Shown one piece after another: positions 1,923 to 54,781 of a DNA stretch of 64,000 bases. The position numbers and the translations under genes were made by a program. The notes beneath the pieces were generated by a model that saw nothing but the letters and a program-made list of their open reading frames with translations, made no database searches and had not been told where the DNA came from. The stretch is from Paramacrobiotus metropolitanus (lineage: Eukaryota > Tardigrada > Eutardigrada > Parachela > Macrobiotidae), in the NCBI RefSeq assembly GCF_019649055.1, contig NW_026570237.1, positions 1,302,001 to 1,366,000 on the forward strand, in the 5' to 3' direction. Position 1 is the first letter of the stretch, and each line of letters opens with the position of its first letter.

Positions 1923-2675
1923 TTATAATGCATCCTCATTCGGCAATTCAGACATAATTTCTCGCCAACATTTCCGGTTCATCTCCTCATCCGAACCGTT
2001 CACAATGGATGCTTCATGCGCGAGAGCAGTGTGAGTGTAAAGGTCAGCCACGTCCGTGAAGTGTTCGCCACACTGGTGACATTTAACGGTTAATTCCGCA
2101 TCGTGTGTGAACACATGCAGCTGCAAATCCTCGTCAGTGGAAAACGTTGCACGGCAGATCCCGCACGTAAAATCCTTCCGTTCCGGCAGGTGCTGATGGG
2201 TGGTTACATGCTGCGACAGCAAACGATAAAACGGAAACGTAGCTGTACAACCAGGACACTCGAATCCACGACTGCCGTTGTGCGTTTTAACATGCTGCTG
2301 TAGTTCACTGGAGTCGGCGCAGCGCTGCCGGCAAATGACGCATTCGCTGGACGATGGCGCGTCTTGTGCAGACTCGCGATTTTCGTGTTCTTTGGCGTGC
2401 TGCGCTAACAGGCAATCCGACGGGAAGCGCTGTTGGCAGATCTTGCATTTGGAAATTTTATTAATGTGGGCCGTCTTCACGCCGTGCGTGCCAACATGCT
2501 CCACCAATTTCTCCCACTGTTCAAAAACTTCTCCACATTCTGGACAAATTTTCACAATGTCCATATCCGCCGATATCCCGTGTGTCACTTTATGCAAATC
2601 GCAGAGGATTTGGCTAGCAAACTGCAAACTGCACGTGTCGCAAGTTAAATTATCCGCTGCGCTGGAGACATTCAC
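1923..2675 (-). CDS. Gene A exon 9: last C2H2 finger exon
   Basis: Seven C2H2 fingers, including CDTC, CPEC, CKIC, CVIC, CPGC, CGIC and CHQC starts, then an acidic tail ending NEDAL and a TAA stop. The acceptor is tttttag at 2676. At 753 nt the exon is a multiple of three. It combines the two types of terminal exon that copies B and C carry separately. Confidence 0.8.
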   Translation of the reverse strand: MNVSSAADNLTCDTCSLQFASQILCDLHKVTHGISADMDIVKICPECGEVFEQWEKLVEHVGTHGVKTAHINKISKCKICQQRFPSDCLLAQHAKEHENRESAQDAPSSSECVICRQRCADSSELQQHVKTHNGSRGFECPGCTATFPFYRLLSQHVTTHQHLPERKDFTCGICRATFSTDEDLQLHVFTHDAELTVKCHQCGEHFTDVADLYTHTALAHEASIVNGSDEEMNRKCWREIMSELPNEDAL

Positions 2676-5600
2676 CTAAAAACCGGAAGAATTCTTGCCG
2701 TACAGACAACAGCGAATTTAACTTCCTACTCTGCAGACACTGGAAATAACGTCCTACCTTCATGTGAGACTGAAAATGAACAATACTTGCAAAACTCTTC
2801 GGACATTTTGTGCAAGAGTAACGTTTCGGCAGCTGCTTTCGCCGGGATTCATTGACTAACGTCTTATCCGGGTCCTTTGCGCTGGAATGCCTCCGTCGAC
2901 GAACAAAGTAATCTCTAAAGGAATCAGGATGTTCGTGCTGCACGTGCATCCGGAGCTGGCTGAACCAACAACTGCACACAGGGCACTTGCTAGTCGCTTT
3001 CCCGTGCGCGGCAACATGATCGGCCAGCAATTCTACTTCTTCAAATTCTTCTTGACATTCGGGACAGGATTTGGTGTTTCTCAATTCCATATTGCTGCAT
3101 CCGTCGTTGTCATGCCGCAACTTGTGCAGTTGACATAATACTTCACTTATAAATCGCAGTCCGCACTCGTTGCAAGTCACGGAACTGAACCGCGCTTCCT
3201 TTATCCGATGAGCCTGAAAGTTAATACCAAGAAAAGGGTAAAGGTAGAACCGCATTAACAGCACAAGAAAACAACACACCTTCAAATGCAAATCGTAGCT
3301 CCGACGCGAAGGAAGCATTTTTCCACATTTATAACACCGATACCCATCAGGTTCTTTCGTCCCCGGTGGGTCACTTCCTGGGTTTTCTTGAGCGGTAGAT
3401 TCGGCGTAATTATCAGGATGATCCCGGCGAATGTGCTGCTTCACCGCAGCATACCAGCGACCGCACACCGGACACATATCCGTGCGTCTTCCGTGCGAAT
3501 CCACATGCGCCATCAACGCGGCGAATTCTTGGAACGATTCACCGCACTGCGGGCACTCGTCCCCATCCACTCGATAATCGTTCATAGCGCCCTTATCCGC
3601 ATGCTGCCTCCGATGCAGATCGCATACGGCTTCGCTGTCAAACCGCAGACCGCAATGATTGCAGGTCACATTCCTGTATTTCACTTCCTTCACCCGCTGA
3701 TCACTGTCATTGTCAGGTTGCACTTCAGGACGTCCGATCAATTTATACTGGTAACCGGGATGATCATGCCGGATGTGGTTGTCCAGATAAGAAAAACGTC
3801 GCTTACAAACCGGGCATTCTTCCGTTTGTCTACCGTGAATTTTGACATGCTTCACCAGGGCGTCGAAGCTGTCAAATCCCTCTGCACATTCACAACATGC
3901 CGTTCTGCTTCGTAGATCGTCGGCTAATTCTTTGCCTCCATGTTCGCATTCGTGGATGCGGCGCAATAAGTCAGTGCTGAAACGCAAACCACACTGCAGA
4001 CATGTGACTGTATGGTAGCGAAGCTGGTGTCCAAGAAGCGGTGTTCCAGGATGCTGTCGCTTCAGATGCATACGCAGGGAGCCCACCCAGTGGCCGCATT
4101 CGGGGCATTTCTTCGCGGCTACAGCATGCGTAATAATATGCTGAAACAACTCAGCCGTCTCCTCAAAAGTTTCATCGCATTCGGGACATTTTTGAGTGCC
4201 GAAAACAGCGTGATAGGATGTCGTACCATGGCTGGTCTTGTGTAAGACAAATAAACTGTCTTTTCCAAACTGCAGACCACAATCCTGACACGTCGAGCTA
4301 TCCAGAGATGCCTTCTTCCGATGGGCCTACAACGATCATCATGTAAAACATTGATTGACTGTAAACGAAAGCTAATAACGAACCCGCATATGTTTAATTA
4401 AGGCAGCCGCCTTCCCAAATTCTTTCCCACATTCCGAACACCTTGTCCTGGCTAGATACTTCGGATGGCAACGTGCGATATGTTTCTTCAACCCTGGATA
4501 ATAGCCGTTGCACACTGGGCACTTCTTCGTTAGCTTCCCGTGCGCATAAACGTGCTCCGTTAATTTTTCCAGGCTTTCGCACATCTCACCGCATTCGGGA
4601 CATTTTCGTGTGATTTTTATACTGTCGATACACTCCCTGTCCTGATGGCCCAGCTGATGTATACGGTAGAGGAAGTTACTGGCAAATCGCAACCCGCACT
4701 TATCACAGTTCAAACGCTCCCAATACAGCTTTCTTCTTTCGATTCCGGGATGATATCGTTGTAGATGAAGCAGGACAACGCTCGAACTGCAGGTTTCATT
4801 GCAAACCGGGCACTGTACCAGCGGTGTTCCATGCTCGTCAACATGCTTCAATAAAGCAGGAAAGTCGCCAAAATGTTTCGAGCATTCAGGACACTCTCGT
4901 TCAGGCGGATCGTCGTAGCCTGTGTGGCCCAATTGGTGCAAACGTAGCATATCCTCCCTCCGAAATCTCACATTGCATTCCGAACAGATATTACTAGTGA
5001 AAAACTTCCGCTTTTTGTTGGTTCGCTTGCTTTTCGAGCGCACACGAGAGTTTTCGCCAGTCTGTCGGTAATCAGACTCTACTGTTACTGGCAACGATGA
5101 CTCGCTTTCCATCGGCAAATGGGACACAGAAACGGTTCCCACTGTGGTACTTTCGATCAGATTCTTGTCCCTGGGGGTGGCTTCCGATGCTTGGCCATTA
5201 TCATCATCCAATGGTACACAAGCTTCATCACCTGCTGAAAATTAGTTGCACCAAATTCCATGATACTCAGCTTCATTAAAACGTTTACTGGACTAAAAAA
5301 TATCCACCTTCATCCTTTGTTTCCAGTTTTACATCTTCAACAGCACCGTGTCCCGGCGTTTCCAGCATTTCCAAATACTGCTTCGAGTACCAGACCTTTA
5401 GTTCTTCGTGCGGCGCGACAGTTTTGATGGTGACGAAGACCACCTGCGATGCGCGCGAGAACACCAGCAGATTGCTGTTTTGCAGGCTGTCCGCAAAACG
5501 GACATGCTTCATCCAGTTGCAGGCGTAATCCGACTCCAGTTCGTAATGTTTGCGGGGCTTGTCCGTAATGCAAAAATACAACGCCTTTTCACTATCTCCC

Positions 5601-8600
5601 ATTGCCACTGGAGCAATTAATGGTCCGAACACCGTGTGACGGGCAATGACTTCCTTGGTGAACACAGCTTTCCCTAAAAAGAAAAAGTACATATGTAGGT
5701 GACGGCATAAATACAGAGTACAAATAAGCGCAAAAAGGTTGGCTATTTTACCGGTTAACGAATCGTCGCAGACATCCAAATAGAGCATCTTGGGCAAACT
5801 GCCGACGGCCAACGGAACAACTGGTTCATCGCAGACGCTGGCTGCATGCAGCCAACAAGGAGTAGGGAGGAATTTGTGGCAACAGTCACAGTCTGCAACC
5901 ATTCGTTATATATTAGGACAACAAGAAAAAAATCAGCTAGTTATTCTCACATATTAAAGCGTCATCCAGGGCACATCGCGGAGACGAAAGAGGAGGCGCC
6001 TCCTTCACTGGCTCCTCCGCCGTAAAAGGCAGTGCCAAAGCCATATCCTGAACGCCAGCATCTGAAACTATAAAACCAAAGAGTACAAAGTGTCCATTTT
6101 TTTATACAACACAACACTATCGGAATAAAATACTATTAGCAAATAACGCATCCTACCGTTACTGAAATCCTCATCCTCCGGAAGACCATTTTCAACGGCT
6201 CTCGTTATTCTCAAGGGAGCACACAGCGGTTCTGTGATGTGTAGAACGGGTGCGTCCGGGTAGTCGACTTCCATGAGCGAATCATCATCATCCAAAGCAT
6301 CGAAATCCCATGCACTCTCATCCGCCGGCATTATGTCCCTTTCTTCATAATCACCAGCGTCACTGTCGGCTCCACTTTCTCCGTCATCAACCGCCCGATC
6401 ACACGAAGACAATTCGCCGAAACCATCAACCGGCACTCCTGTCATTCCATCCGTCACGTCATCTGACGAGTGCGGATCGCTCACAGCGCTCAGCAGACGA
6501 AGACATCTTTCCGACGGAATGGCGTCGTTTCTTAATTTCAGTTCCCTGTTAAACCTATTCACAGGCACCCACGTCAAATCGTCCAACTGAAAATGATTTT
6601 CGCACACCAGCAACCCCTCCGAGAAGACAAAATCGGGCTTCCATTCACGGCAAACATCAACCCACTTTGTGCGCTGCTCGTCATCCGCAGGGAACGGGAA
6701 AAACGTCAGCAGTTCCGATCGGACATACCTTTCACTAACTACACGCCACCAACCACACACACAACACATGCGAACTTCATTCAAATCAGCCGGTTCACTC
6801 AAATCCATCGGGCATCGAAACTTCTCGACGCACTGCAGCAGAGACGGCATCACATCTTTCTTCAACAGACTAGTGCGCGGTTGTCTGCCTTTCGCCGTTT
6901 CCTCCACAAAATCCTTAGGGCTAAAATGCTTACTACATACTCGATTGAGCGGGTGAGGTCTCCACGAAATCGAGCAACGAATCCGGTTCATCCATTCGCA
7001 GAAGCGGGATGAAGTGCCGAGGCGGGGAAAAACATGAAATGTTATCTTCTCCAGTCTGCCCTCAACATGCGCACGATTCCCACATCCCGGCACGCAGCAT
7101 TTGTAACCGGGGGCGCGATCCGTAATCCTGCAGCTCCCAACCTCCACACTGATTTTCTTTAATCTAATAGGAGCAGGCAGCTTCGCGAAAGTCTTTTCCG
7201 TCGGAATCACATCGCTCTTTGACAGCAATCCGCCAGCCAACAGCCGTGCCAAATTATCCAATGAGAAATGATTTTCACACACAAGTGACTCTTTCGATAC
7301 GGTCAAATGGGTATTCCATTGACGACAAGCGGTTAACCATGAATGGCGTAAGCGATCGTCATCCGGAAAGGGAAAGAAGTTCAGTCGCTCGGATGGAATA
7401 AGTTCCGTCTCGTCCAGTGGCCGCCAACATCCGCACACACAGCACGTCCGGACACCACTTCCCGCTGCTAAATGTGTATTCCTTGGAGAGCGGTACTCTT
7501 CTACACAATCCAACTGAGTCGGCACGACGTTCGCTCTTAAGCATCTGGCTTTCGCCGGCTGGTCGTGGGTTGTTCTGCGGAAATCTTCCGGAGAAAAATG
7601 TCGACTGCACACTACATCGCGTGCTTTAGGTGTCCATTAATGTGTTGCTACTCATGTATCTTTTACCATGGCGGGAGAGCGAAGTGGGCATGTGGAAGTT
7701 CTCGGCTGGGAATCGGTGAAGCTCCGGCTGCGCACCTGGTGTGTACGCGCTTGCGCACCTGGTATGTGCGCGCCTGCGCACCTGCCGGTGTGCGCGCTTG
7801 CCGGTTTCCTTTCCCTGCACCTCAAACCCCCTTTATTTGGCTTTAGACAAATAACAGAACACAAAACAAGTCGGGTGTGGCGGGTGGTAAAGAAAAGTTT
7901 GCAACTGCACGCTAGCTTGGCAAAACTGAAATGAGCTGCGGTGCAAGCAGCGATGAACTCTAACACCGATCGGTGCCATGCTGGCGCTGGGAAAACAGGA
8001 TGTGGGCGTAAAATGAAAAAAAAAGAACAGACAGCACAACACTCGTACGCCACATTAATAACAATTAAAACATTTTTAATTGGACATAAAACGGAACAAC
8101 GAATTCGATTGATCCATTCGCTCCGATTCACCTTTGCTATATAACCATTGTGGAAATGGTAAAAGCTTATCGGGGGCGATGGAATTTCGTTCCACGCATA
8201 TTTCCGACATCCCGGCACGCAACAGACAGGCGCACACTTTTTTCTTTTTCTTTCATGCATTTTAGCTAATTCTCCTTGCGCGGTTGCAGCAGATTCCAAA
8301 TCTCTCGGTTTAATGTATATGGAAAACGGAACGGAAGGAACTGCTTTCTGTGCTTCAAAATGATTCTCACAGAGAAACCACGGTGTTTTCTCCGAAATCG
8401 ATGTCCAGTCAATATCGTTCCTCTGTGATTTGCAAAATTCAATCCATTTCTCCCTCATTTCGCCCGAAGGTGCTCGGTAGAACTCCAGCTTCTCCGAGGT
8501 TTTCAGCCGCCGGTGGGATGCAAACGGCCGCAGACCGCAAACAGCACAACCTTCTTTCCCCGCCATCAAGTCTGCCGGTGTGAACGAGCACAAAGATTCC

Positions 8601-11600
8601 ATGCAAGAAAGCTGAGTGGGAAAAGCTGAATCCAGTAGGCACGCTGACTTTTGAGACCCTTTCTTACGACATTTCAGCTTAATTGCCGATGCAGGGAAGT
8701 GTTCCAGACAGATTCTGGCTCGTCGTTCTGGAACCCAAGAAACATTGTATCGCACCATGCGCAACCAGTCACAATACCGTTCATCAGTCGGTGGAATAAA
8801 CTCAAAAAATTTTCCTGCGACCGAATCCTTTTTCTTCAAGATAGTTTCACATCCCGGAACGCAACAGAAAACTCCTTTCCGAAGCAGGAAATGGCCATAC
8901 AAGTACGAGGTAGATGTCGCCAGTTTCGGGTCGGTGTAGTTAACGTCCAGCGAATAGGTCCATGACGGGACTGCCTCACTGTTGCTAACGATGGAGCCAA
9001 GTCCTTCCGCCGCTTCTATGTACTGTCCTTCGAAATGATTTTCGCAAAGGTACCACGGCGTATCCGCCCCGATTAATGTCCAGTCGATGTCATTCCGCCG
9101 TTGATTGCAAAAATCCACCCATTTTTTCCATAATGCATCCAACGCGGACGGAGGCGCGCGAAAAAACATCAGCTTTTCTGATGCTTTCGGCTGTCTGTCA
9201 ACTGGTGGACGCAAGCCGCACGCAGCACAACCAATTGCTCCGGTAGCCATATCTGCTGCGGTAAACCCGCATAATGAAGCCATGCACGACAGCTGACTGG
9301 GCAGAGCTTTTCTCACGAGAGAAGCATCGCTCTTACTGGATTCGATCTCGGACTGGTTAAAGTGATCGCTGCAAATTCTCTCGCTAGAATCTGGAATCCA
9401 AGATGAGTTGTACCGCAATCGCTGTGTCCACGTTCTGTAACGCGGATCACCGACCCCAACGAACGGGAAAAATATCGGTTTCCCTGGTAAATATATATGC
9501 TGCCTTTTTGACTGGCACACATTCTGGCATCCCGGCACACAACACACTATATTCGCTTCTTCCACCGGATGCGGTGGCGGTTTAGCAGACGCAGCAGCAT
9601 CTTCTAACTGAGCATTTCTGGAGGATCCAGGTTTTACTTGATCAGTCGGTGGAGGCACAATCGGAGAAGCAACAACCGGAAGTGCCGTCTGATTAGGACT
9701 CGGCATGAAGGTAGCACCGCCCACGCTGACAGAATTAGCTGCAGACCGTATCAGTACAGAGGACGGAGTCGCCGGAACGGTTCCGGAAGGTGGACTTTGT
9801 AGAACCGCCTCAATAAATACATTTGCCACTGACCTCACCTGGCTATTGTTGGTGGTATTCAGAGGGAAAAGCCGTGGACTAACGTTGATCTGTAAGTTAA
9901 CCGGTGGCGGTCGAACTTGATTTTCCACAGGTAGCGAGCATAACAGCTGGCTGGGGCATGGCAGGATGTCATTCCGCCTCCGTAGCACGAACTTCATTTC
10001 TCCCAGTTGCTCAAACCGGGTCACGATGTCAGCCGGGACAAAGTGCCGTTCGCAGGCATACAGTGCATTCTCCCCCGGAGCTTCAGAGCAGGCAGCCAAC
10101 CACTTCTGTCGCTGGTTCGGCTCTTGGGGAAACGGAATAAATGCCAATCGCGACGCAGATTTATAGTGATAGATTGTCTGCTTGATCGCTCGCCAGCATC
10201 CGCAGATGGCACACACCCTACTGAACGGACACGGTCCATTCAACTTCCGCATCAGTCCATTCCGGCATCCCGTATGCACGGGAATCGCTGTCGGTTTCAG
10301 ACACAATACCGTGCCAATATAATCGTAGTCCGAGGGGAGAAAATGCAGACTGCACACGACAGAATACGGAGCCGGCTGCCAGAAGCCGGAAAACGCCACC
10401 CACTTGACCCATTCGGCCCGCAAGCGCAGATCCGTGGGAAACGCTTCAAAGCGAATTCTCCCCTGTAGATTATTATTGCGGTCAATACGACAACCGGGAA
10501 CACAGCAGTTTCGCGCTTCGTCGGCGTTCGTGAAGGCAGGAAAATCCGGAGGAATGTGCTGTGCGCAGTGCTGCATAACCATGAGTCGTCCGTCGACAAT
10601 CTTCTGAGCTAGCGCACAAACGGAAGGCATTGGGATGGGGTTTGAACTGCTAATAACCGGAGGAAAAAGTCCGGCTGTGCTTGGAATTGCGACTGGCGAA
10701 CTAACAGAACCAGTAGCATTCGTATTTTGAGGGTTATTCAACAGTTCTTTCAGATTCGGATGCGAAAAATTTGGTAACACGTCTGTGACGACAGGAGAAG
10801 GATCCTGTCTAGCTATTTTAGCGCTTGGAATTGCGGCCGACAAACTGAGAGGCTCAGTCGCACGCGCACTTGTAGAGTCACTCAACAGTGCCTTCAGATT
10901 TTCATGCGAAAAATTCGATTTCACGTTCGTGGATATCTCGGCAACTGCATCCGAAGCAATGACAGAATCATCCGTTTCTCTCTTAACCTCATCAGACGTT
11001 ACTTCGTGCATGACGTCCTTTTTAGGTTTTTTAGCGCTTGGAATCACGACCGACGAATTGACAGGCTCAGTCGGACGCGCACTTGTAGAGTCACTCCACA
11101 GTGCCTTAAGGTCTCCTTGCAAAAAATTCGATTTCACATCCGTAGATACCTCGGCAGCTGCATCTGAAGCACTGACAAAATCCTCCGTTTCTTTCTTAAC
11201 CTCATCACACGTTATTTCGTGCAAGCTATCGGCAGAGCGCTTCTTCGAACCTGAAAGGACCAACAATATAATAAACAGCGTTCCTTAATTTCCACTGTCC
11301 ACGATATAAGCACCAACTGTACAGTACTTCACCATATTTAAATGAATAATTTACGAGTAATGACGCTATTTGTAGAACGCTATGTCCACACCGAGTTCAC
11401 AAGTAATTCACCCTAGCAGTCTAGCACAAGTATGAAATATATAATGAAGATTCAAGTTTCAACCCATACATCTACGTACTCGTACATCAGCAACTCAAAT
11501 AAAATACCGTGACGATTCAAACAAAAACTTAAGAGAGCATCAACGAAAATTAGATCGTTTGTAAATCAATACCAGATTGCGTTGTTTTAATTTGTATATC

Positions 11601-13800: not shown

Positions 13801-14457
13801 TCAGTATTCGTTGCTGTCGTCGGTCAATCCCGCCATCAATTCCCGATAACATTCCCGGCCAACCTCCTCATCCATCTCCATTTCGAAATCATCCACATTT
13901 GCCATTGCGTGCGCGGCAGCAATGTGCACGTCGAGATCGCCGTTGCACGTGAAACGTTCCGCGCACAGATAACACTTGACCGTCAACTCCGCATCATGGT
14001 GCGTAAATAAATGCAACTGCAAGGCGTTTTCATCCGGCAACTCCTCGTCGCAGACGCTGCATGGAAAGCCGGTTTTCGGACGCCAATGCTGTTCCTCCAT
14101 CACATGGCGCGATAATAAATGATAGAAGGGAAACGCTTCATTACACATCGCGCAGTCAAATCCACCGTTAACATTGTGCTTTTTCACGTGCTGATTCAGC
14201 TGAAGAAAATCCGCAAATGACTTCCGGCACACTACGCATTCATTAGGCACAAGCTCTTCTGCAACAGGTTCAGATAATTTCCCGTTTTCATGCTCTCTGA
14301 CGTGCGCCGCAAAGATACGCGATGACTGGAACGTTTTCTTGCAGATTTCACATTTCAGCTGATTTTTGTTGCTGTGAGCGAGCATATGCTGCTGCAGATC
14401 ATCATCACTCCCGAACACTTCGTCAGAAACCATACATTTCAGTGCCGGGTGATCAGT
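13801..14457 (-). CDS. Gene B exon 12+1: last C2H2 exon
   Basis: 657 nt ending in TGA. It encodes about six fingers (CEIC, CVVC, CAMC, CSVC, CYLC and a first finger whose second cysteine is Ser: CMVS), then an acidic tail GRECYRELMAGL. Acceptor tttgcag. Homologous last exons close C and D. Confidence 0.8.
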   Translation of the reverse strand, partial: TDHPALKCMVSDEVFGSDDDLQQHMLAHSNKNQLKCEICKKTFQSSRIFAAHVREHENGKLSEPVAEELVPNECVVCRKSFADFLQLNQHVKKHNVNGGFDCAMCNEAFPFYHLLSRHVMEEQHWRPKTGFPCSVCDEELPDENALQLHLFTHHDAELTVKCYLCAERFTCNGDLDVHIAAAHAMANVDDFEMEMDEEVGRECYRELMAGLTDDSNEY

Positions 14458-35689: not shown

Positions 35690-36021
35690 TTGAAAACAAA
35701 AGGCTGTCATTAGTGTCATAGCAAAGAAATACGCACCAACAGACTAAACAACAACGCTGAAATCTGCGCCCAAATCTGCCCCAAATGAACCACTAAATTG
35801 CTTACAAACACATACAGCCCAAGCTGAAAACAGGTTCTCATCAATAACCCGCTTGGGCAATGGTCACTCACTGCACCCCCGTCTTCGTAGAAAAATGTCT
35901 AATACAAAAATATCAAATCACAAACCGAAAACAAAATGCGATATCACTACTTGTCAGATTTAAAACGAAAGTCGTTGACACAGCGCTATCACAACATTTG
36001 CGGATGCGACAGCCTTGCTGT

Positions 36022-36603
36022 CTATTCAGCACTTCCGTCTGTCAACCCTGCCATCGTTTCCCGCCAACATTCCCGACCCATCTCCTCTTCCATTTCCATT
36101 AGGGAGTCCTCCACAGGCGCTGAAGCATGCGCGATCAATTCCGCATCGTGGCGGGTAAACAAATGCAGCTGCAGTGTGTTTTCGTCGGGCAACTCTTCAT
36201 CGCATTTGCTGCACGGAATGCCGGTTTTCGGACGCAAATGCTGTTCCTCTATCACATGACGGGACAATAAATGATAGAAAGAGAACGTCGCGTTACACAT
36301 AGGGCATTCAAATCCACCGTTAATATTGTGCTTCTTCACGTGCTGATTCAGTTCGGGAAAATCCGCGAATGACTTCCGGCACAACACGCATTCATTAGGC
36401 TCCGGTTTTTCAACAACGTAGAATTCCCTGCTTTCGTGCTCTTTCACATGTGCTGAAAAGATACGCGATGACTGGAATATTTTCCGGCAGATTCCGCATT
36501 TCAGTTGGTTTTTGTTGGTGTGAGCGAGCACATGCAGCTGCAGATCAGCATCACTCCCGAACACTTCGTCACAAACCAAACATTTCAGTGCCTCGTGATA
36601 TAT
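36022..36603 (-). CDS. Gene D last C2H2 exon
   Basis: 582 nt ending TGA. Five fingers (CLVC, CGIC, CVLC, CPMC, CSKC) and the acidic tail GRECWRETMAGL. The penultimate finger of the other copies (starting CYLC or CGQC) is deleted in frame. Confidence 0.8.
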   Translation of the reverse strand: MYHEALKCLVCDEVFGSDADLQLHVLAHTNKNQLKCGICRKIFQSSRIFSAHVKEHESREFYVVEKPEPNECVLCRKSFADFPELNQHVKKHNINGGFECPMCNATFSFYHLLSRHVIEEQHLRPKTGIPCSKCDEELPDENTLQLHLFTRHDAELIAHASAPVEDSLMEMEEEMGRECWRETMAGLTDGSAE

Positions 36604-39600: not shown

Positions 39601-42018
39601 GTAATGATCGGCAGTGCCAATGGCATTTCATGAACGACGCAGAATGAAATTCAAATAATTGCAAAATACAAAGTCATCCAACATCATACTTTATCATCTG
39701 GTGACATTGTTCATCAAGTAATAAGGCCGCTCAAAAGAGTTCAGGGAAAGATCGTTTAGAATACTATTACCACCACCAGATCGTATGAAGTTACATGTAC
39801 CGTATTCACAAAAATGTATTTATGTCCGCAAAACCTATATATTGTATCACTAATAAAAAAATACCACACATGGACGTACCGTTAGCAGAATTCTCATCCT
39901 CCGGAAGACCATTTTCGGTGGTTCTCAACATTCTCAAGGGAGCACAAAGTGTTTTCGTGCTGCCCAGTTTGGACGCGTCTAAGTCGTCAACTTCCACGAG
40001 CGAATCATCGTCTCCGGTTGCATCGAAATCCCAGGCGTTATTCAATGCCGACCCAATAGTATCTATACACAAGCCAGTGAGACTGCCAGCTACACTTTGA
40101 CTGTCATCTTCCGCTGTATCAACGCCCGTATCAAACGCAGAAAATTCACCGAAACCGTCAACTGGCAATCCAGGATTTAAATTAGATGTCGCCAGTTTAG
40201 GGTCAGTGTAGTTTATGTCCAGGAAATAGGGCAATGACGGAACTGCTTCGCTGTCACCAACAACAGAGCCAAGTCCTTCAACCGCATTTCTGTACCTCTC
40301 TAAGAAATGATTTTCACAAACAAACCACGGCATATCCGCCCCGATTAATGCCCAGTCAATGTCTTTCCGCTGTGCATTGCAAAAGTCCACCCATTTCCTT
40401 CGTATGGCATGCAACGCGGCAGTAGGCGCTCGAAAAAACGTCAGCTTTTCTGATGCTTTCGGTTGTCTGCCAGCTGGTGAGCGCAAGCCGCACACAGCGC
40501 AACCAATTACTCCGGACGCCATATCTGCTGTGTTAAACCCGCATAATGAAGCCATACAGGATAGCTGAATGGGCAGAGCTGTTCTCACAAGACAAGCCCT
40601 GCCAGGTTCGATCTCGGACTCGTGAAAATGATCACTGCAAATTCTCTCGCTGGGATCCGGAATCCAAGATGAGTTGTACCGTAATCGCTGCGTCCACGTT
40701 CTATAACGCGGATCATCAATCGCAACGAACCGGAAAAATTTCGGATTCCCTGGAAGGGCATGCTGCCTTTTCGACTGACACACATTCTGACATCCCGGCA
40801 CACAACATACTGCTCTCGTTGCCTCACGATTTCTGGAGGATCCAGGTTGTATGTGGTCAGCCAGTGGAGGCGCAATCGGAGAAGCAGCAGCCGGAAGTGT
40901 AGTCGGATTAGGCATTACCAAGAACGTAACTCCCGGGCTGATTGAATTACCTGCTGTCCGTATCAAATAAGGTATAACGGTCCCGGCAGATGGGCTTTGC
41001 AGGACTGCCCCGTTAAATGCATTTGTTAAGGACACACTTTTCGTATTCCGATTCGGCGGACGAATTTGGATTGGTTTCGATGTGCTGAAAACAGGAGGAA
41101 GATGTCTGGCCCTTTTAGCAGCTGGAATAGTGCTTGGCGAGATGGCATTTGTATTTCGAGAGTTATTCAGCAGTATATTGAGATTCGCAGGCGGAGAATT
41201 CAACTGTGCATCTTGTCGAGATTTGGTATTTTCAACCGAAGCGTTCCCGCCTTCATTTGGATCTGTCGAAGTATCACTGCCGATAATTTCGTCTAAACTA
41301 TCGGCAGAACGCTTCTTTGAACCTGAAAGACAAACATCACTACAATACAACATTCGATAACATGGAAAAGTACAGTTCCATAAAGATTCGCGTAAAACGC
41401 AAGAAATACCATTTAAATCGTCGAAAATCAATAACTACTGTTACTATTTAAAAGCAGTGTACGTTGATTTCAAAGTGATTTTATGCCAGTTTGCCTCTTC
41501 GAATTCAGCCACGTAATTTTAACCACTGCTACAATGTAGCAGTGGTTAAAATTACGCGGCTGATTTCGAAGAGGCAAATTTTAGCTTGCATCACTGAAGA
41601 TGTAGCAGCTACATCTTCAGTGATGCAAGCTAAAATTTTACATAATCCACTACTCACACTGGCTGGGCAGAATAATTTCGGGGCTGTCGGCGCGCGGCAC
41701 AGCATGTGTTGGTGGACGCATGGAATCGGGAACGCCTTCGAAAACGCACGGCAGAGCATCGTATTTCAATCGTTTCTCCGTTCGTTTGGAATTATCTGCT
41801 TGCGGCAACGCGAGGATATCGGTCGGACGAAAATGTTTGCTGCAGATCTTGCTGGATGGAGAAGGAGTCCAGTCTTTTGGACGGAGTGTCCGCTCAATCC
41901 AGACGGGATACCGCGGATCGTTCGGATGCGGGAAATCGAAGAAACACACGCTGCGCAAGGAACGCGACTGCTCCGACGAAGGACACAACAACACGCAGCA
42001 CGCTGCAGGATCGGACAT
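36022..42018 (-). CDS. Gene D: compact THAP–PR/SET–C2H2 copy
   Basis: Exons: 42018–41658, 41322–39880, about 39643–39533, 39477–39337, 39269–38904, 38827–38517, 37559–37176, 37119–36685 and 36603–36022. Phases agree, giving about 1,377 residues. Order: THAP, one THAP pair (pair 2 type), linker, knuckle, PR/SET, and about a dozen fingers. The first finger block is reduced to two or three degenerate units, the seven-finger exon is gone apart from a relic, and the linker exon has lost its AG acceptor. The PR exon is intact. It may be a functional short form or an early pseudogene. Confidence 0.7.
36685..37119 (-). CDS. Gene D C2H2 exon 36685–37119
   Basis: 435 nt, phase 0. CDMC, CPEC and CSLC fingers are intact; the fourth has lost its second cysteine (CRES). 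Donor GTTCGT. Confidence 0.75.
37176..37559 (-). CDS. Gene D C2H2 exon 37176–37559
   Basis: 384 nt, phase 0. Three fingers (CSDC, CPEC, CPVC) followed by a stump of the fourth (YKCPKGC) just before a GTTTGT donor. The rest of the fourth finger is deleted, yet the donor and frame survive. Confidence 0.65.
37704..38335. mobile_element. Fold-back structure with long inverted arms in gene D
   Basis: The arms at about 37,704–37,790 and 38,255–38,335 are imperfect reverse complements of about 80 bp (both read CTGTTTTC, TTTGGTAACTTCC and ATGCAGTGC on the matching strand). Between them are a relic of a finger exon (about 37,850–37,930), a 30-bp imperfect palindrome (37,966–38,020) and a CGCGACTA/TAGTCGCG hairpin near 38,090. 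It replaces the seven-finger exon present in the other copies. It may be a short transposable element or a pair of them in inverted orientation. Confidence 0.6.
37850..37930 (-). pseudogene. Relic of the missing seven-finger exon of gene D
   Basis: The plus-strand sequence CGTGGATGCGGTAC with GAATCGCAAAGCACACTGA matches the finger start CxQCGLRFST…RIHE of C and B in the same place, but with a frame change and lost residues. Confidence 0.6.
38517..38827 (-). CDS. Gene D linker and reduced first C2H2 block
   Basis: 311 nt, against 830–866 nt in B and C, but still phase 1 to 0. The linker VGGTSLPCDDYTE runs into the end of the fifth finger (AEKLAEHVDVHG). The next finger reads CLIY instead of CPVC, losing a ligand. 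Confidence 0.7.
38904..39269 (-). CDS. Gene D PR/SET exon
   Basis: 366 nt PR domain, open, with NWMKHVRFADSLQNSNLLVF and EELKVWYSKQYLKM. Nearly identical to gene C over most of the exon, with a 164-bp perfect block. Confidence 0.85.
39337..39477 (-). CDS. Gene D zinc-knuckle exon
   Basis: 141 nt encoding CDCCHQFLPTPCWLH and SLPKMLYLDLCDDSLTG. The acceptor is gtag where the other copies have gcag. Confidence 0.75.
39533..39643 (-). CDS. Gene D linker exon with lost acceptor
   Basis: Encodes VVHEMPLALPIITEEPVE and PRCAPDGAFV, with a good GTAAGT donor. Where the other copies read tttcag before the exon, D reads tttcat, so normal splicing into it is doubtful. The exon is symmetric (phase 1), so skipping would keep the frame. 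Confidence 0.5.
39880..41322 (-). CDS. Gene D exon 2: two THAP-like domains
   Basis: 1,443 nt, open. After SKKRSADSLDEI and a Pro/Ser linker only THAP pair 2 remains (CCVPGCQNVC … CSDHF and CAVCGLRSPAG … CENHF). It then joins the acidic tail at SNLNPGLPVDGFGEFSAF. Pairs 1, 3, 4 and 5 are deleted in frame. Confidence 0.8.
41490..41578. repeat. Near-perfect 44-bp-arm palindrome in intron 1 of gene D
   Basis: The left arm 41490–41533 and the right arm 41535–41578 are reverse complements at about 42 of 44 positions, with a single central base. Such a structure can form a cruciform or, if transcribed, a long hairpin RNA. Confidence 0.85.
41576..41639. repeat. Second perfect palindrome next to the first
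   Basis: The left arm (TTTTAGCTTGCATCACTGAA … ending GATGTAGC at 41606) and the right arm starting at 41608 are perfect reverse complements over about 31 bp with a one-base centre. It abuts the palindrome at 41490–41578. Confidence 0.85.
41658..42018 (-). CDS. Gene D exon 1: N-terminal THAP domain
   Basis: 361 nt from MSDPAACCVLLCPSSEQ; ligands CCVLLC and CSKHF, box ALPCVFE; donor GTGAGT. Unlike A–C there is no ttttag acceptor just before the ATG (the place reads tttacg). Confidence 0.85.
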
Positions 42019-43334: not shown

Positions 43335-43460
43335 TTAATTACTCTTGCTCAAAGCGTCCTTATCAGCATGCTGCATCCGCTGCAGGTCGCACAGGGCCTT
43401 ACGTCAAACCGCAGATCGCAGTCGTGACATGTCAGGTTCCCGTATTTCATTTCGGCGACT
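43335..43460 (-). pseudogene. Gene E truncated last exon
   Basis: Begins like the SHRAKEVKYGNLTC module of B but with bases missing near its start. KYGNLTCHDCDLRF is followed by a frame change, then DLQRMQHADKDALSKSN and TAA in the restored frame. All later fingers are gone. Confidence 0.6.
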
Positions 43461-43530
43461 CTGAAAAAAGCGAAATTAATAACTGCAAGCAGGATGAAGA
43501 TAATGATGTAACAGCAAAAGAACTTCGAAC

Positions 43531-43961
43531 CGAAAATATGCGAAGGCAAGCTAGTCTTCGAAGCGAATTCTTCGCTGCATCCTGGGCATTTGTATTTTTG
43601 GTTTCAAATCAACATCTTCATCTGAGCGATCATTTTCACTCCCGGATTTATTCAGCCCAAGTAGTTTACGGTGGTAATCCGGATGATCACGGCGGATGTG
43701 GGCTGTCACAACCGCATACCAGTCTCCACACTCTGGGCATTTTGTCGTAGCTCTCCCGTGCTCGCTCACATGCTCAACCAATTCATCCAGTCTGTCAAAG
43801 TTTTGCTGACATTCAGGACACTCTCGTGTGTCGCGAAGGAGCGCTGTTGGTTCACCGTTTCCGTGCTGCATTTTGTGCAACCGACATGCGATATCGGTCT
43901 TGAAGCGCAGACCGCAGTCGCTGCACGTGCGAGCGACCAGTGCAGATTTTGCGCGGTGAGC
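43531..43961 (-). pseudogene. Gene E C2H2 exon 43531–43961 with frameshift
   Basis: Three good fingers (CSDC, CPEC, CPEC), then the fourth is out of frame: YKCPGCSEEFASKTSLPSH continues in another frame from about 43,605. 431 nt, not a multiple of three. Confidence 0.65.
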
Positions 43962-44107
43962 CTGCGAAGAGACAACCATCAACTCCGAATCTTCAAGTAT
44001 AGTTTCGTTCAAATCGATACAAAAAAATAAAACAAAGGATGACAGCATAAATTAATCAAATTTTAACGAAGTATCACGAAACAGGTGACAATAACACACA
44101 TACTTAC

Positions 44108-44494
44108 AACGACATGTCCAGTAAAAGCGTCAAGTGCTTCGAATTCCTTTCCACATTCGCCACACCGATACGGAACGTGTCCACAGTCTTTTCCCGACCG
44201 ATACTGACATTCGGGATGATGACGCTGAATGTGGCTGTTCAACGCATGAAAACGTCCCTTACAAACGGGACATTCCTCCGTTCGCCGACCGTGAACGCTG
44301 ACGTGCTTGACCAGTGCGCCGAAGTCTTCAAATTCTTCGACACATTCTTCACACGTGGTCCTGTTGCGTATATCTTCGGCGATTTCTTTGCCACCATGCT
44401 CATATTTGTGGATGCGGCACAACAAGTGCGTGCGGAAATGCAAACCACACTGAACACATATGGTTTTCTGGAAAGGAACCCGGTGTCGATGACC
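44108..44494 (-). CDS. Gene E C2H2 exon 44108–44494
   Basis: 387 nt, phase 0. Four fingers (CVQC, CEEC, CPVC, CGEC) from GHRHRVPFQKT to FTGHVV, donor GTAAGT. This is the closest match in the window to the finger block placed in the THAP array of gene B. Confidence 0.75.
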
Positions 44495-44745
44495 CTGCAG
44501 TCAAAATGCAATCATGAGAACAAGAATGTGTGAAAACAAGTATGTACCCATAAAACCATTTCCGCCTGATCCCGGCCTCTACAAGATCGATAAACGGCAC
44601 TATATTTTTGCATAACCACGTGTCTTCCAACAACTGTTGTGCCCTCTATAACATTTCATCGTTTGACTGTACCATGATCACTATCATCAGATGATAGTAT
44701 ATTTTGAGCGACTTATCGTGTTGTACGAACTGAATGAACACGCAC

Positions 44746-45159
44746 CAGCATATGCTGTTCCAAGTGACGGCGTAACCGGAAACGTTGACCGCATTTTAGA
44801 CACTTATAATTTTCCTTGTATCCGGGATGCGTTCGGTACCCTTTCTCTTGCAAAATAGACAGATGCGCTCGCGCAGGATGGTGCCACTTCATGTGTTTAC
44901 GTAGACGATGACAGGGAAACCAGTGGCCGCATTCGGGACATTTCTGCGCGGCTACAGCATGCGTGAGAACATGCTGATGCAGTGGATCCATCGCGTCGAA
45001 CTCTTCATCGCATTCGGGACATCTTTGCGCGCCAGAAATAGCGTTACAGGCTGCAGTGCTATGGCTGTTCTTGTGTAAGACAAATAAACTATCTTTCGGA
45101 AATTGTAGTCGACATTTGTGGCACGTCCAGCTGTCCAGAGATGCTCTGATCTGATGGCC
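44746..45159 (-). CDS. Gene E C2H2 exon 44746–45159
   Basis: 414 nt, phase 0. Fingers CHKC, CPEC, CPEC and an extra CLKC finger before the donor GTGCGT. In A, B and C this half and the next exon are one exon; E either keeps the older split form or has gained a finger and an intron. Confidence 0.75.
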
Positions 45160-45235
45160 CTAAAATTACAACCAAGTTAGGAGTATGTCTATGTGGCAAT
45201 GTAGTAAACGACCATCAACGAATGCACACACTAAC

Positions 45236-46140
45236 CCGCAGGTGGAGCCGTAAGGACGACTCATTCGTGTATTCCTTCCCACATTCCGAGCAACTTGTTT
45301 CGGCCAAATAGTGCGGATGATAACGTGCAATATGTTTTCTCATCCCAGGATAATAGCCGTTGCAAACCGGACATTTTTTCGTTGGCTTTCCGTGTACATC
45401 CACGTGCACGGCTAATTTCTCCAGGCTCTCGAACATCTCACCGCATTCGGGACATTTCCGTGTGATTTTTATATTGTCGACACACTCCTTGTCCTGATGA
45501 CCCAGCTGATGTAAACGATAGAGAAAGTTACGGGCAAACCGCAAACCGCACGTATCACAGTTCAAACGCTTCTGGTGTAGTTTTCTTCTTTTGATTTCGA
45601 ATCCGGGATGGTAACGGTGAAGATGAACGAGGATAACGCCCGAACTGCAGGTTTCATTGCAGACAGGGCACTGCACAAGCAGCGTTCCATGCTCGTCCAC
45701 GTGTTTTAACAGAGCGGGAAAATCGTCGAAATGTTTCAAACATTCAGGGCACTTTCGTTCAGGCGGATCAGCGTACCCGGTGTGACCCAGAAGATGCAAA
45801 CGCAACATACCTTCCTTCCGAAATCTCGTATTGCATTCTGAGCAGATGTTGCTGGTAAAAAAATTTCCCGTTTTGTTGGTTCGCTTCTTCTTCGAACGTA
45901 CACGAGAGTTTTCGTCAGTCCGCCGGTAGCCATCAGCTGCAGTCGCTGGTAACGATGACCCACTTTCTCCCGGCAAACGGGACACACAAGCCGCTTCCGA
46001 TGAGGAAGTTCCATTCTTACACATCAGAGCATCATCAGTGGAACATCGCGCGGGCGAGGCAAAACGTGCTGAAATCTCCATTGCATCTTTTGAGGCGAAC
46101 GTCAGCGCTGAAGGCATGCCATGAATGGAGCCAACGGACA
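45236..46140 (-). CDS. Gene E fused linker and first C2H2 block
   Basis: 905 nt. GSIHGMPSALTF and CSTDDALMCKN (the linker exon with its former donor now coding) continue directly as GTSSSEAACVSRLPG (the finger-exon linker), then seven fingers follow. The length keeps the phase change (remainder 2) expected for the separate exons, so the deletion of the knuckle and PR exons was in frame. Confidence 0.8.
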
Positions 46141-46298
46141 CTGACACATAAAACCACACCAACCTCAATTTGTGCACCACTTGACGACTGTTATTGCATG
46201 CACTGCTTTTCACATCATTATACTATTCACAGAACAAAAAAGGCATACCTATAATCCTTTTGTAATTCGACAAAATAAAATGCCGCATAAACACTTAC

Positions 46299-49200
46299 CG
46301 TTAGTACAATCTTCGTCGGCCGGAAGGCCATTTTCGACGTTTCTCCTCCGCTTCAAAGGAGGACAAATGGAATTTATGATGTCCGTTACGGGTAGGTCTG
46401 TGTTGTCGACCTCCATCAGTGAATTATCGTCGTCCGTCATATAGGTACCCCAGGCATTCTCATACGCCGACACATCACCCCTTCCTTCGCAGACGCCAGT
46501 ATCACTGCCAGCTTCGCTTGCATCCTCCGCCGCCGTGTCAGCGTCCCGAATCAACGAAGACAATCCAAAAAGTCCATCAAACGACGCTCCTGCTTCCCCT
46601 TCAACAGCGTCATCTCGCGCGCTTGTATCGTCTGAAGGGGTCAGAAAACGCAGACATCTTTCCGAAGGAACTGCGTCGCTTCTTAATTTAAGCTGCTTGT
46701 TCACTTGATCCACACATATCCAGGTCAATTCGTCTAACTGAAAATGATTTTCACACACCAACAACTCCTCAGAGAAGACGAAATCTGGATTCCATTCCTG
46801 ACAAATGTTCACCCACTGTTCGCGCTGATCATCATCGGAAGGAAATGGAAAAAATGTTAGCACTTCCGAACGGACATATTTTTCGCGGGTACTGCGCCAC
46901 CAGCCACACACACAGCACCTGTGTACTGCACTGATCTCAACCGGTTCACTCAAATCCGCTGGGCTGCGAAACTTTTCAACGCACTGCAGTCTAGAAGGCA
47001 CCACCAATTTTTTCAAATAATTAGTGCGCGGCTGTTTTCCTTTTGACGTTTCCTCCACAAAATCCTCCGGGCAAAAATGCTTACTACACACTCGAGAGTG
47101 CCGATCGGGTTTCCACGAAATCGCACAGCGAATTCGGTTCATCCACTCGCAGAAGCGGGACGACGTTCCGAGGCCGGGAATAATATGAAAGGTAATTTTC
47201 TCCAACTTGCCCTCAACTTGCGAACGATTCCCACATCCCGGCACGCAGCACTTGTAGCCGGTGCACCAACCACTAGTATTAGTGCTGCGGGTTCTAATTC
47301 CTCTGTTGTTTTTCTTTAACTTCACAGGCACAGGCAGCTCTGCAAACGTTGGAACCGCTTCGCTTTTAGGCACCCACCTGGCTTCTTTGTCGTCTTCCAG
47401 CAATTGCGTCAAATCATCCAACGAGAAATGATTTTCGCAAATAACGGATTCTTTCGAAACGGTCAAATTGGGATTCCATTGGCGGCAAGCAGTTAGCCAT
47501 GAATCACGTAAGATATTGTCATCCGGAAAAGGAAAGAAGCTCAGTCTCTCGGATGGAATAAGGTCATTCTCGTCCAACGGCCGCCGGCATTCACACACAC
47601 AGCATGTCTGGACAGCTTCCCTTCCCACTAATTCACCGGAATTCCTTAGAGCGCGGTATTCAGCAACGCAATCTATTTGAGAAGGCAGTGCGTTCCGTCT
47701 CATCCTTCTGGGTTTAACGGAAGTTGCTTCGAAGAAATTTTTCGGAGAGAAATGTCGACTGCATATTACGTCGCGTGCATTAGGTCTCCATGAAACGGCA
47801 CATCGGATATGATTTACCCATTTATTCCTATATCTCCCCTTCGAATAAAAACGATAAAACTTTAGTGGTACCTGTGGCGTTTCATTCCAAGCAAATTTCC
47901 GACATCCCGGTACAGAGCAAACAGGCAGCTGACGTTTAGTTGTTTTCTTCTCTTCATTTTCCTTAGTCTGCTTGCCTGTTGGATCGGAAGTAGATCCAGA
48001 AAATCCTGAATATACGGAAAATGAAATGGAAGGAACCGCTTCTTCCTCCGCATATTTCGCTTTGTTGTGTGTGTCAAAGTGATTTTCACAAAGGTACCAC
48101 GGTGTTTCTTCCGGAACTGAAGTCCAATCAATATCGCTTCTTTGTAATTTGCAAAAATCAATCCATTTCTCCCTAATTTTACCCGATGGTGCTCGGAAGA
48201 ACTCCAGCTTCTCCGAGGCTTTCAGTCGGCGGTTCGGTGTGAATGGATGAAGACCGCAGACAGCACAGCCTTCCTTCCCCGCCATCATGTCTGCCGGTGT
48301 GAACGTGCACAAAGATTCCATGCATGACAGCTGAGTGGGAAAAGCTGAATTACGTAGACGCAGAGCGGGTTTAGAATACCTCGTGAGATGCCGGATTTCC
48401 GATGCAGGAAAATGTTCCGTACAAATTCGGGTACGGCCCTCGGGAACCCAGGAAGAATTGTACCGCACCATGCGCAACCATTCACCGTACCGTTTGCCTC
48501 CGGGCGGAAGAAAATCAAAAAATTTTTCTTTCCCCCAATCTCCCAAGTTCATGATAGTTCCACATCCCGGGACGCAACAGAAAACGCCTTTTGGCAACCG
48601 CGAATTTCCAGAGTGCGAGGTAGACGTCGTCAATTTCGGGTCGGTGTAGTTGACGTCCAGGGAATAGGGCAAGGAGGGGATTGCTTCACTTACACTAACA
48701 ACAGAGCCTAACCCTTCCGCCGCTTTTCTGTAATTCTCTCCGAAGTGGTTTTCGCACACAAACCATGGCGTGTCCGCCCCGATGCAAGCCCAATCGATAC
48801 CGAACCGCTGCTGGTTGCAGAAGTCCACCCATTTCCGTCTTAGCGCAGCAAAGGCGGGACTAGGCGCGCGAAAAAACATCAGCTTTTCTGATGCTTTCGG
48901 TTGTCTGCCAGCTGGCGGGCGTTGACCGCACACAGCACAACCAATCGCTCCGGAAGCCATATCTGCAGCGGTAAACCCGCATAATGAGGTCATGCAGGAC
49001 AGTTGACTGGGCAGAGCTTTTCTCACGAGATACGCCTCGCCCTTCCTGAATTCGATCTCGGACTCGTCAAAATGATCACTGCAAATTCTATCGCTGGAAT
49101 CCGGAATCCAAGATGGGCTGTACCGCAGCCGCTGCGTCCAAGTTCTATAACGCGGATCACCAAAGGCAACAAATCGGAAAAACATCGGTTTCTCTGTTAG

Positions 49201-50602
49201 TTCATTCTGCCCTTCTGACTGGCACACATTTTGGCATCCCGGTACACAACATGCTATATTCGTTGGTTTTATTGAATTAGCATCTGAATGAGCTGGCGGC
49301 GGTGTTTTCGCAGGAGCAGCAAGGACTTCACAGTGAGGATATACAGAATGGCCAAGTTGCATCTGTTTAGTCAGTGGAGGAACAATCGAAGGAAAAGTCG
49401 GATGTGCAGTCTGATTAGGAATCACCAGGAATGTAACACCACCAGGGCTGGTAGAGTTAGTTGCAGAACGTATTACGAAAGAGGAAGATGTCGCCATAGC
49501 GGTTCCCGCATCAGGGCTTTGTAGGGCTGCCGCACTGAAGACGTTTGAAATCGACGCATTTCTGGTATCGTTGACAGGGAAAGACAATGGACTAACGTCC
49601 ATCTGTATGTTAACCGGTGTCGGTCGAGGTCGGTATTCCCTGGGTAACGGAGCGAATACCTTGCTGGGATGTGGCAGGATACCGTCACTCCGCTGCAATT
49701 CGAATTTAATTTCTCCATCCTGCTCAAACCGGGCCAGTATGTCAGCCAGAACAAAGTGCCGTTCACAGGAGTACAGTTCATCCTCGGACGAAACTCCAGT
49801 GCAGACATCCAACCACTGCTCTCGTTCGCTCGGGTTCTGAGGAAACGGAACAAATGCCAATCGTGCTGCGGACTTGTAGTAGGTGGTCTGCTTGATCGCT
49901 CTCCAACACCCGCAGATGGCACACACCCGACTGAACGGGCACGGTCCATTCAACTTCCGCATCAATTTATTTCGGCATCCCAACTGTGACGGAATCGCTA
50001 TCGGTTTCAGGCTAGGAGTGGTTCCCATAAGGCCGTAGTCCGAGGAAAGAAAATGAAGACTGCACACAACTAATGCAAAGCTGGCTGCCAGAAGCGGGAA
50101 CACGCCACCCGCTTGATCCATTCGGTTCGGAGGTGTTTGTCCATGGGGAAAGCGTGGAAATAAATTCTCCCCTGTAAATAATTATTATCGCGCCCGCTTG
50201 GACAGCCGGGAACACAGCACCTGCGGGCTTCGTCGGCATCCGTAGCAGCAGGGTAATTCACAGGAATGTGCTGGGCGCAGTGCTCCGCCACTATCAGTCG
50301 TCCATCGACAACCTTCTGTGCTAACGAACAAGCGGGGCGAATTCGGATCTGTTCTGAACTGTTGGCGTCAGGAGGAGGAACGTATCTGGCTTTTTTAGCG
50401 TTTGGAATCGCGGCTGACAAACTAAGAGGCTCAGTCGCATACGTATTTTGAGGGTTATTCAGATTCGCATGCTTAAAATTCGACAGTGCATCTGGTGGAA
50501 CTTCGGCATCTACAGTCGAAGCTTGCACGTATTCATTTGAATCTTTCGAAGTATTGCTGCAGATAATTTCGTCCAAGCTATCAGCAGGACGCTTCGTTAA
50601 GC
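46299..50602 (-). CDS. Gene E exon 2: ten THAP-like domains with one frameshift
   Basis: The acceptor is ttctag and the N-terminus reads LTKRPADSLDEI. The first type-a THAP begins normally (CCVPGCPSGRD … RFWQPA) and breaks near 50,070, where a missing base creates a stop. VVCSLHFLSSDYG resumes in the next frame, which is then open for the remaining nine domains and the acidic tail (ENGLPADED). Donor GTAAGT. Confidence 0.75.
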
Positions 50603-51248
50603 CTAGAACAAACAGCAGACACAGCTTTCGGTAACCCATAACACAATAACATCGCAGACAAATCTACCGTTTTATAATTTCATTGAACCATCATCAATTT
50701 TTACAAGTGATGAAGTAATACTTAAAAACTCTTTTTGTAATGTTCACTGGAAATAAATAAACAAAAAATAACAGCAATACAACTAAGAAAACATTTTCTC
50801 AAAAGATAGAAAAATAAAGGTGGCAGTACTGTAATGAAATTTTTATACAGAAAATCCCATTATGTAATGTGAAAAACCGATCACGCCGCGCGTGTTAAAA
50901 ATTGATTTTTTTTTTCATATTTAATGCGCTCCAAATCAACCTGATCATGGTTTGATCGTCTAAATTTATTGTTATTTTTTTGCTAACATAAGACAGCAGA
51001 AGGTAACACAGCAGAAGAAACAGCAGCGGACATATTCTACGTAAATCCACTTATCGTTAATTCACATGTGAACTTTAAAAGCCTACTGCTTTCATTTCAA
51101 AATCATTTTCGTATTTGTCTTGCATATTTCTTATTCTCACTGATTGTTGCGCTTGGAAGTCTGCTTCATAATTTTAACATACTTCTACTATACCTGCATT
51201 CCGAAACACAATAATACAACAAAAAATTTTAAATAATCATGTACTCAC
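50603..51248. other. Intron 1 of gene E
   Basis: 646 bp of AT-rich sequence with no recognised feature. Confidence 0.6.
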
Positions 51249-51609
51249 ATTGAGTGGGGGGATTAATTTCGGGGCTGTCTGCGCGCGGCACAATATCTGT
51301 TCGTGGACGCATGGAATCGGGAATGCCTTCGAAAACACTCGGCAGCGCATCGTATTTCAGTCGCTTCTCCGTTCGTCCGGATCCATCTGCGTGTCGCAAA
51401 GTAAGGATATCCGAAGGACGGAAGTGTCTGCTGCAAATCTTGCTGGTTGGAGAAGGAGTCCAGTCTTTTGGACGCAGCGTGCGCTCGGTCCAGATCGGAT
51501 AGCGCGCATCATTCGGATGCGGGAAATCGAAGAAACACACGCTCCGCAGAGAACGCGAGTGTTCCGCTGATGGACAGCACAGAACTGAGCACGTACTGGC
51601 TTCCGACAT
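51249..51609 (-). CDS. Gene E exon 1: N-terminal THAP domain
   Basis: 361 nt counted from the second of two adjacent ATG codons (51,609 and 51,612). MSEASTCSVLCCPSAEHSRS, ligands CSVLC and CSRHF, box ALPSVFE. Donor GTGAGT. No acceptor-like site just upstream. Confidence 0.85.
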
Positions 51610-54760: not shown

Positions 54761-54781
54761 GCCAGGGAAGAGCGGGCCGCC

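Follow-up and report, generated by a model that had tools for sequence, protein, structure and literature searches.

We analysed a 64,000-nucleotide (nt) stretch of the genome of the tardigrade Paramacrobiotus metropolitanus (C17:1302001-1366000, where C17 is contig NW_026570237.1), referred to here as the window, which carries five tandem units, A to E, on its minus strand. The units consist of exons for THAP domains, a Cys/His knuckle, a PR domain and arrays of C2H2 zinc fingers. Within a unit these parts lie on one strand in the order THAP, knuckle, PR, fingers, and this order is repeated along the cluster (Table 1). The initial annotation had described five adjacent copies sharing all of these parts between positions 1923 and 51609. 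In the new models these ends correspond to the stop codon of unit A and the start codon (ATG) of unit E, and the five tandem units are present, but a PR domain occurs in only four of them, as unit E has neither knuckle nor PR, and units C and D are shortened.

Table 1. Coordinates of features in the window (exon junctions are marked by a slash)
Feature	Position	Strand	Description
Unit A	1923-12429	-	Rough gene model, 12 exons, 2,830 amino acids
Unit A, ATG exon with THAP	12069-12429	-	
Unit A, linking exon	5951-6061	-	
Unit A, PR exon	5308-5673	-	
Unit B	13801-25453	-	13 exons, 3,322 amino acids including linking exon
Unit B, THAP-array exon	19657-22912	-	C2H2 module, then THAPs; 3' end NGLPEDE.../GTAAGC, phase 1
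Unit B, linking exon	19197-19304	-	108 nt, phase 1 at both ends, located between the THAP array and the knuckle; found by alignment, skipped by gene finder
Unit B, knuckle exon	18986-19126	-	141 nt; CDCCHKFLPTPCWLH
Unit B, PR-domain exon	18553-18918	-	366 nt
Unit B, C2H2 exons	13801-18477	-	Several internal modules are 423-429-nt phase-0 exons
Unit C	26674-35174	-	THAP array shortened, linking exon 105 nt, knuckle, PR exon, C2H2 modules
Unit C, PR exon	31647-32009	-	
Unit D	36022-42018	-	Few THAPs, knuckle, PR exon, short C2H2 array
Unit D, PR exon	38904-39269	-	
Unit E	43551-51609	-	Long THAP array, without knuckle and PR; ATG at 51609
Unit E, C2H2 exon	45215-46222	-	
THAP-less PR gene	1-52 (C17:1301714-1302052)	-	Spans left window edge
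Groucho/TLE-like open reading frames	54600-59400	+	Resemble gene with WD40 repeats (by eye)

The genome (169.8 Mb in 533 contigs) was searched, and 157 kb of flanking sequence was added to the window to give a 221-kb stretch. Of five DM-domain matches in the genome, two are at C5:2,135,071 and C5:2,163,474, which agrees with the paired DMRT genes that PMC11191345 places on scaffold 5 within 1.96–2.37 Mb. Searches for TTR-52, prompted by a possible nematode origin, and for lipocalins gave no match (with silent controls) and three matches, respectively. With profiles built from the stretch's own sequence, 112 THAP and 19 PR matches were found there. A THAP lies directly 5' on the same strand at 15 of the 19 PR matches and not at the other four. 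The cluster extends beyond the window both ways and is larger than the five copies first annotated, with 14 units modelled within C17:1.20-1.42 Mb; to the left of ~1.354 Mb the units are encoded on the minus strand, and those between 1.37 and 1.414 Mb on the plus strand. A full PR match was found in 12 of the 14, the exceptions being unit E, which has none, and unit b4, which has a fragment. One PR gene without a THAP spans the left window edge, and further PR domains without a THAP lie at C17:1287613, 1368356 and 1415782.

All three domain kinds were matched by Pfam profiles, the check proposed in the initial annotation. Three open reading frames of the THAP arrays matched the THAP profile (PF05485) with E-values of 3.8e-77 (8 stretches), 2.9e-83 (9 stretches) and 5e-50 (6 stretches), above the curated cut-off of 23.9 bits, and structures of THAP1 were matched at 4.6e-07. 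The PR open reading frame of unit A matched PRDM2_PR at 2.5e-20, and a search of PDB sequences with the PR domain gave 13 matches, all of them PRDM proteins or a PRDM14 fusion. The finger exons match Pfam C2H2 models and lie 3' of the PR domain on the same strand. Judged by these profile matches, the encoded proteins belong both to the THAP proteins and to the PRDM family, which is defined by a PR domain followed by C2H2 fingers. A chance origin of the layout is excluded because of the E-values and the repetition of the arrangement.

The units differ in their make-up. With its linking exon added, unit B comprises 9,969 nt including the stop and has no internal stops; the open frame over 13 exons that had been annotated for this gene was therefore recovered, at 3,322 codons and not 3,334. 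Unit B has 10 THAPs by strict pattern and 11 by profile, with a C2H2 module between THAPs. Such modules sit inside the THAP array in units B, F, G and H, so that the N-terminal part does consist of THAP exons and a THAP array, as annotated, but not purely of THAP. The unit A model covers the knuckle exon only in part. Unit C has five THAPs by either method, and unit D has two by strict pattern and three by profile. The acceptor AG of the linking exon has been lost in unit D, which is possibly degenerate. In unit E the linking region continues in frame into a C2H2 exon, and the junction alignment has no AG at that position. The THAPs are mostly of two alternating types, CCVPGC and CxxCG(C/L/W) (window 46249-50181 and 19610-22948), as if the array had grown by duplication of pairs.

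The THAP and PR parts appear to be joined by a short linking exon. In 12 of 14 units, an NGLP motif stands at the end of the THAP-array exon and is followed by a phase-1 donor. Homologous positions of the linking exon were examined in all 14 units (spans a0 and b7 were set apart; the NGLP donor was not seen in a0, and b7 has NGLP with GTTAGT). An AG, an open frame and a GT were found in 12 of them, with a length of 105-117 nt that is always a multiple of three and with phase-1 splice sites. The acceptor of the knuckle exon, AG/AYTG, is in phase 1 and lies two bases ahead of the knuckle codon in all 15 spans that have a knuckle (16 were tested). A rough gene finder that was allowed to split the units returned a single gene in 14 of 14 at both start penalties. 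The junction phases, the linking exon and the gene-finder result make one fused THAP-PR-C2H2 gene, as initially annotated, the best reading of the predicted exons; it is strongly indicated but not proven.

Selection was estimated from the ratio of nonsynonymous to synonymous substitution rates (dN/dS) between paralogous exons, with medians that exclude saturated pairs. Median values were 0.17 for the PR exon (21 pairs, range 0.12–0.65), 0.18 for THAP exon 1 (28 pairs), 0.31 for the THAP-array exon (10 pairs) and 0.25 for the last zinc-finger exon (16 of 21 pairs finite). The THAP, PR and finger exons are thus under purifying selection, and the linker is constrained weakly.

The PR domain was compared with that of PRDM9, to which the initial annotation had likened the core of these proteins. 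By score, the best matches rank as PRDM10, PRDM11, PRDM1, PRDM4, PRDM12 and then PRDM9, with E-values of 2.2e-17 for PRDM10 (3ihx) and 1e-05 at best for PRDM9; affinity to PRDM10 here means this ranking. In the available portions of the sources, the PRDM9 pocket is formed by Tyr276, Tyr341 and Tyr357, and S-adenosylmethionine (AdoMet) is bound by Asn320 (PMC9861158, PMC4749557, PMC12122940). The corresponding columns were read in 59 aligned PR segments, taken from the 221-kb stretch and from 42 of the 67 PR matches outside it. Tyrosine is absent at the position of Y276 (0/57; L 38, F 8, M 8, V 3, 2 gaps) and at that of Y341 (0/56; F 50, L 6, 3 gaps), and is kept at that of Y357 (49/57; L 6, F 2, 2 gaps). 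The position of N320 holds Asn in one of 58 copies (R 53, H 2, Q 2, 1 gap), namely L027, which is PRDM1-like by eye. Two fetched loci, L029 and L051, were missed by the profile and lie outside the 59 segments; L051 has Phe at the Y341 place (by eye). L029 (C5:1460279-1461242) appears by eye to be a different PRDM type, with the motif IYYQTT, Tyr at the Y341 place and Gln at that of N320.

Other features of PRDM9 were also compared. The knuckle is real, but its Cys/His spacing recurs in PRDM11 (in a weak alignment, -1.9 bit) and thus does not point to PRDM9 in particular. In PRDM9 the finger array is homogenised within the gene and the contact residues evolve fast. Comparison of finger modules was restricted to exons of 250–760 nt, 47 of the 60 that bear fingers, which excluded, for example, the 1,569-nt exon of unit A; for 46 of these 47 modules the nearest relative belongs to a different gene. 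In 89 mutual-best module pairs, dN/dS was 0.33 at contact residues and 0.23 in the other helix residues, with 0.28 for the remaining finger positions and 0.40 for the linkers. Within genes the finger modules show no homogenisation, and their contact residues are under purifying selection. A genome search for SSXRD gave no match, the control sequences being likewise silent, and KRAB was outside this search. In overall layout the proteins are similar to PRDM9, but their PR domain does not resemble that of the PRDM9 enzyme and a PRDM9-like core is not supported. The family departs from PRDM9 on three tested features, and the data give no support to an enzymatic or fast-evolving role.

We propose that the cluster is probably a lineage-specific tandem family of fused THAP-PRDM genes that encode chromatin regulators which bind DNA multivalently and whose PR domain is non-enzymatic. 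The sequence shows an exon series that runs 5' to 3' from an N-terminal THAP exon through the THAP array, NGLP linker, knuckle and PRDM10-like PR domain to a long C2H2 array, which is partly assembled from ~420-nt phase-0 exons; splice phases of the exon series agree across paralogs. DNA may be contacted at both ends, with the THAP array at one and the C2H2 array at the other, so that chromatin would be occupied in a multivalent, site-specific manner. The PR domain may serve as a protein-docking surface for co-repressors or other chromatin enzymes and not as a methyltransferase. Docking of this kind is reported for PRDM14, whose pre-SET/SET region docks Mtgr1 according to the available part of PMC4749557. 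The family would have originated when a THAP-PRDM ancestor was duplicated, in tandem and in inverted orientation, after which the numbers of THAPs and modules would have changed, with losses in C, D and E.

Several observations weigh against this proposal. In the linking exon, compared among A, B, F, G and b1, b2, b3, b5, b6, dN/dS was 0.42 on the right-hand side (6 pairs, range 0.28-0.88) and 0.84 on the left-hand side (8 of 10 pairs finite, range 0.57-1.28). The linking exon is thus weakly constrained, and on the left its coding status rests on frame and splice sites. Unit H lacks the NGLP donor, and the donor of b6 is in phase 0. The gene finder picked the exact linking exon in A and G only and included the knuckle pattern in just six units (B, C, G, H, b3 and b4); the models of b1, b2 and b5 contain one stop each. 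Structure prediction of the PR exon in four window sequences gave a mean predicted local distance difference test score of 39.6, and 52 of the 58 PR matches compared outside the 221-kb stretch have no listed THAP 5' within 6 kb. DNA binding and docking are inferred from the domain families to which the parts belong. As a separate observation on b6 (C17:1276550-1277760), a THAP-exon donor in phase 0 instead of 1 may mean that this copy is frame-shifted or spliced otherwise.

A search of the genome with PF21549 gave 85 exon-level PR matches (96 candidates were scored), with clusters on C17, C73, C12, C104 and C448. At exon level some genes yield two matches; the copies on C448, a short contig, may be allelic. 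Outside the 221-kb stretch, 58 of 67 PR matches were compared with the listed THAPs; the nine excluded lie on C17 beyond 1.416 Mb, where no THAP is listed. As 150 of 180 candidates were scored, the number of THAP matches is a minimum; one of the 68 in this comparison (C17:1202474) falls inside the stretch. Nine THAP–PR pairs were found with a spacing of at most 6 kb; in six of them both parts share a strand, and in three they do not. In all six same-strand pairs the THAP is 5', with gaps of 0.7–2.0 kb, and an NGLP motif stands ahead of the PR part in two of the six, L021 and L025. At the latter locus, on C26, an open reading frame between THAP and PR (L025:1006-2133) contains a region that looks duplicated by eye and is followed by the NGLP motif; a Pfam search with this frame gave no match. 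In a FastTree phylogeny of 55 of the 59 PR segments, restricted to genomic copies, the THAP-bearing copies stand in several places, which fits either an old fusion with losses or repeated gains. A wider version of our proposal is conceivable, although we think it unlikely. The THAP-PRDM fusion could be old in tardigrades and could have given rise to dozens of PR zinc-finger genes that form a superfamily, a counterpart to the KRAB zinc-finger proteins, with silencing guided by THAPs and fingers and the PR domain as recruiting platform. This wider version is weakened by the lack of a listed THAP close to most of the PR matches outside the cluster.

KRAB zinc-finger clusters are tandem arrays of genes for long C2H2 proteins with an N-terminal part, and the present family is like them in all three respects. 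It could be read as a tandem repressor family engaged in an arms race with mobile elements, a reading that we regard as doubtful. The large tandem and inverted cluster, in which copy number changes and modules are gained and lost, would fit such a history, and THAP genes are counted among transposon-derived factors in the available text of one survey (PMC10027918). On the other hand, the contact residues, although slightly above the other helix residues and the rest of the finger in dN/dS, are below the linkers and well under neutrality, and no target is known. The family further differs from KRAB clusters in having THAP instead of KRAB, in the presence of a PR domain and in the purifying selection on its contact residues. 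A role in repeat silencing is possible, yet it is not visible as fast contact residues.

A second alternative is that a THAP-array gene and a PRDM gene alternate and were duplicated pairwise, possibly in the form of an operon, with the fused frame arising as an artefact of modelling. An in-frame ATG occurs in 7 of 12 linking exons and likewise in the linking region of D and E, and the PR genes without a nearby THAP (four of 19 in the stretch, most of those outside) and the weakly constrained left-hand link also favour separate genes. Against them, the phases of donor and acceptor agree and have been kept in units that are otherwise divergent, and in five units (b2–b6) the linking exon has no in-frame ATG, while the knuckle exon starts only two bases ahead of the knuckle. 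Moreover, the NGLP preceding the donor is kept among A-E, whereas the reading after the donor is poorly conserved. We consider two alternating genes distinctly improbable.

That the proteins are recombination or chromatin-marking factors of the PRDM9 kind, with a PR domain that methylates histone H3 (H3) and fingers that choose the sites, seems very improbable. The gross layout of N-terminal module, knuckle, PR and finger array is shared with PRDM9, the equivalent of Y357 is kept in most copies, and HIM-17, a THAP protein of C. elegans, has an influence, probably indirect, on the formation of meiotic breaks according to the available part of PMC9097270. These likenesses are opposed by the replacement of the other two tyrosines and, in all but one copy, of N320, by PRDM10 as the nearest match, by finger modules whose closest relatives lie in other genes with constrained contact residues, and by the occurrence of a large tandem family in place of one gene. 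Least probable of all is that the units are decaying or non-functional relics, which would explain the defects (E without PR, the lost acceptor of D, the lost donor of H, the out-of-phase donor of b6, the PR fragment of b4) but is contradicted by dN/dS of 0.17-0.31 in the main domains and by models of A, B, F, G and H that are open over 2,830-3,565 codons, with the qualification that the finder avoids stops.

Among known proteins, the PRDM10/PRDM15 group is closest to the present family, with PRDM10 nearest in the sequence of the PR domain. Like the family, PRDM15 is reported to keep Y357 alone of the three catalytic tyrosines of PRDM9 (PMC9861158, available portion), while PRDM10 itself, as read from the alignment, differs in having Tyr at the Y341 place. 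The present family is unlike this group in its N-terminal THAP array, its finger modules in separate exons and its tandem arrangement. It shares with PRDM9 and PRDM7 the order of N-terminal module, knuckle, PR and fingers, and differs in that two catalytic tyrosines and the AdoMet-binding Asn are replaced, a THAP array stands at the N-terminus and the fingers are not homogenised. HIM-17, LIN-36 and LIN-15B of C. elegans are likewise THAP-based chromatin proteins, and HIM-17 has several THAP repeats. To our knowledge, neither a PR domain nor a C2H2 array is present in any of these three proteins. LIN-36 and LIN-15B repress with DREAM, LIN-15B through H3K9me2, according to the available part of PMC8552245.

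No protein joining THAP to a PR domain or PRDM protein was found among the matches listed in the open PMC literature (titles and abstract starts; subscription papers and preprints were outside its scope), in line with the initial statement that no described protein with a THAP array and a PR domain was known to its author. The survey of transposon-derived factors, in the part of its main text that is available, mentions THAP 29 times and PRDM, the SET domain and tardigrades not at all (PMC10027918). What appears to be new is the combination of known domains, within an unusually large PR family. A 2007 survey, in its available part, counted two PRDM genes in nematodes and three in arthropods (PMC2082429), against which the exon-level PR matches found here show a large separate expansion. 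Both THAP and PRDM proteins regulate chromatin, and the cluster offers a clear case for asking what use is made of a PR domain without most of its catalytic residues.

Two minor observations concern the window and its models. A PxDLS motif, which resembles the CtBP-binding motif, occurs between the last THAPs at a similar position in four of eight gene models (PMDLS in A, PLDLS in B, PADLS in E and PMDLS in H); it is short and may be a chance occurrence. The plus-strand open reading frames of the window that resemble a Groucho/TLE-type gene separate the minus-strand half of the cluster from the plus-strand half.

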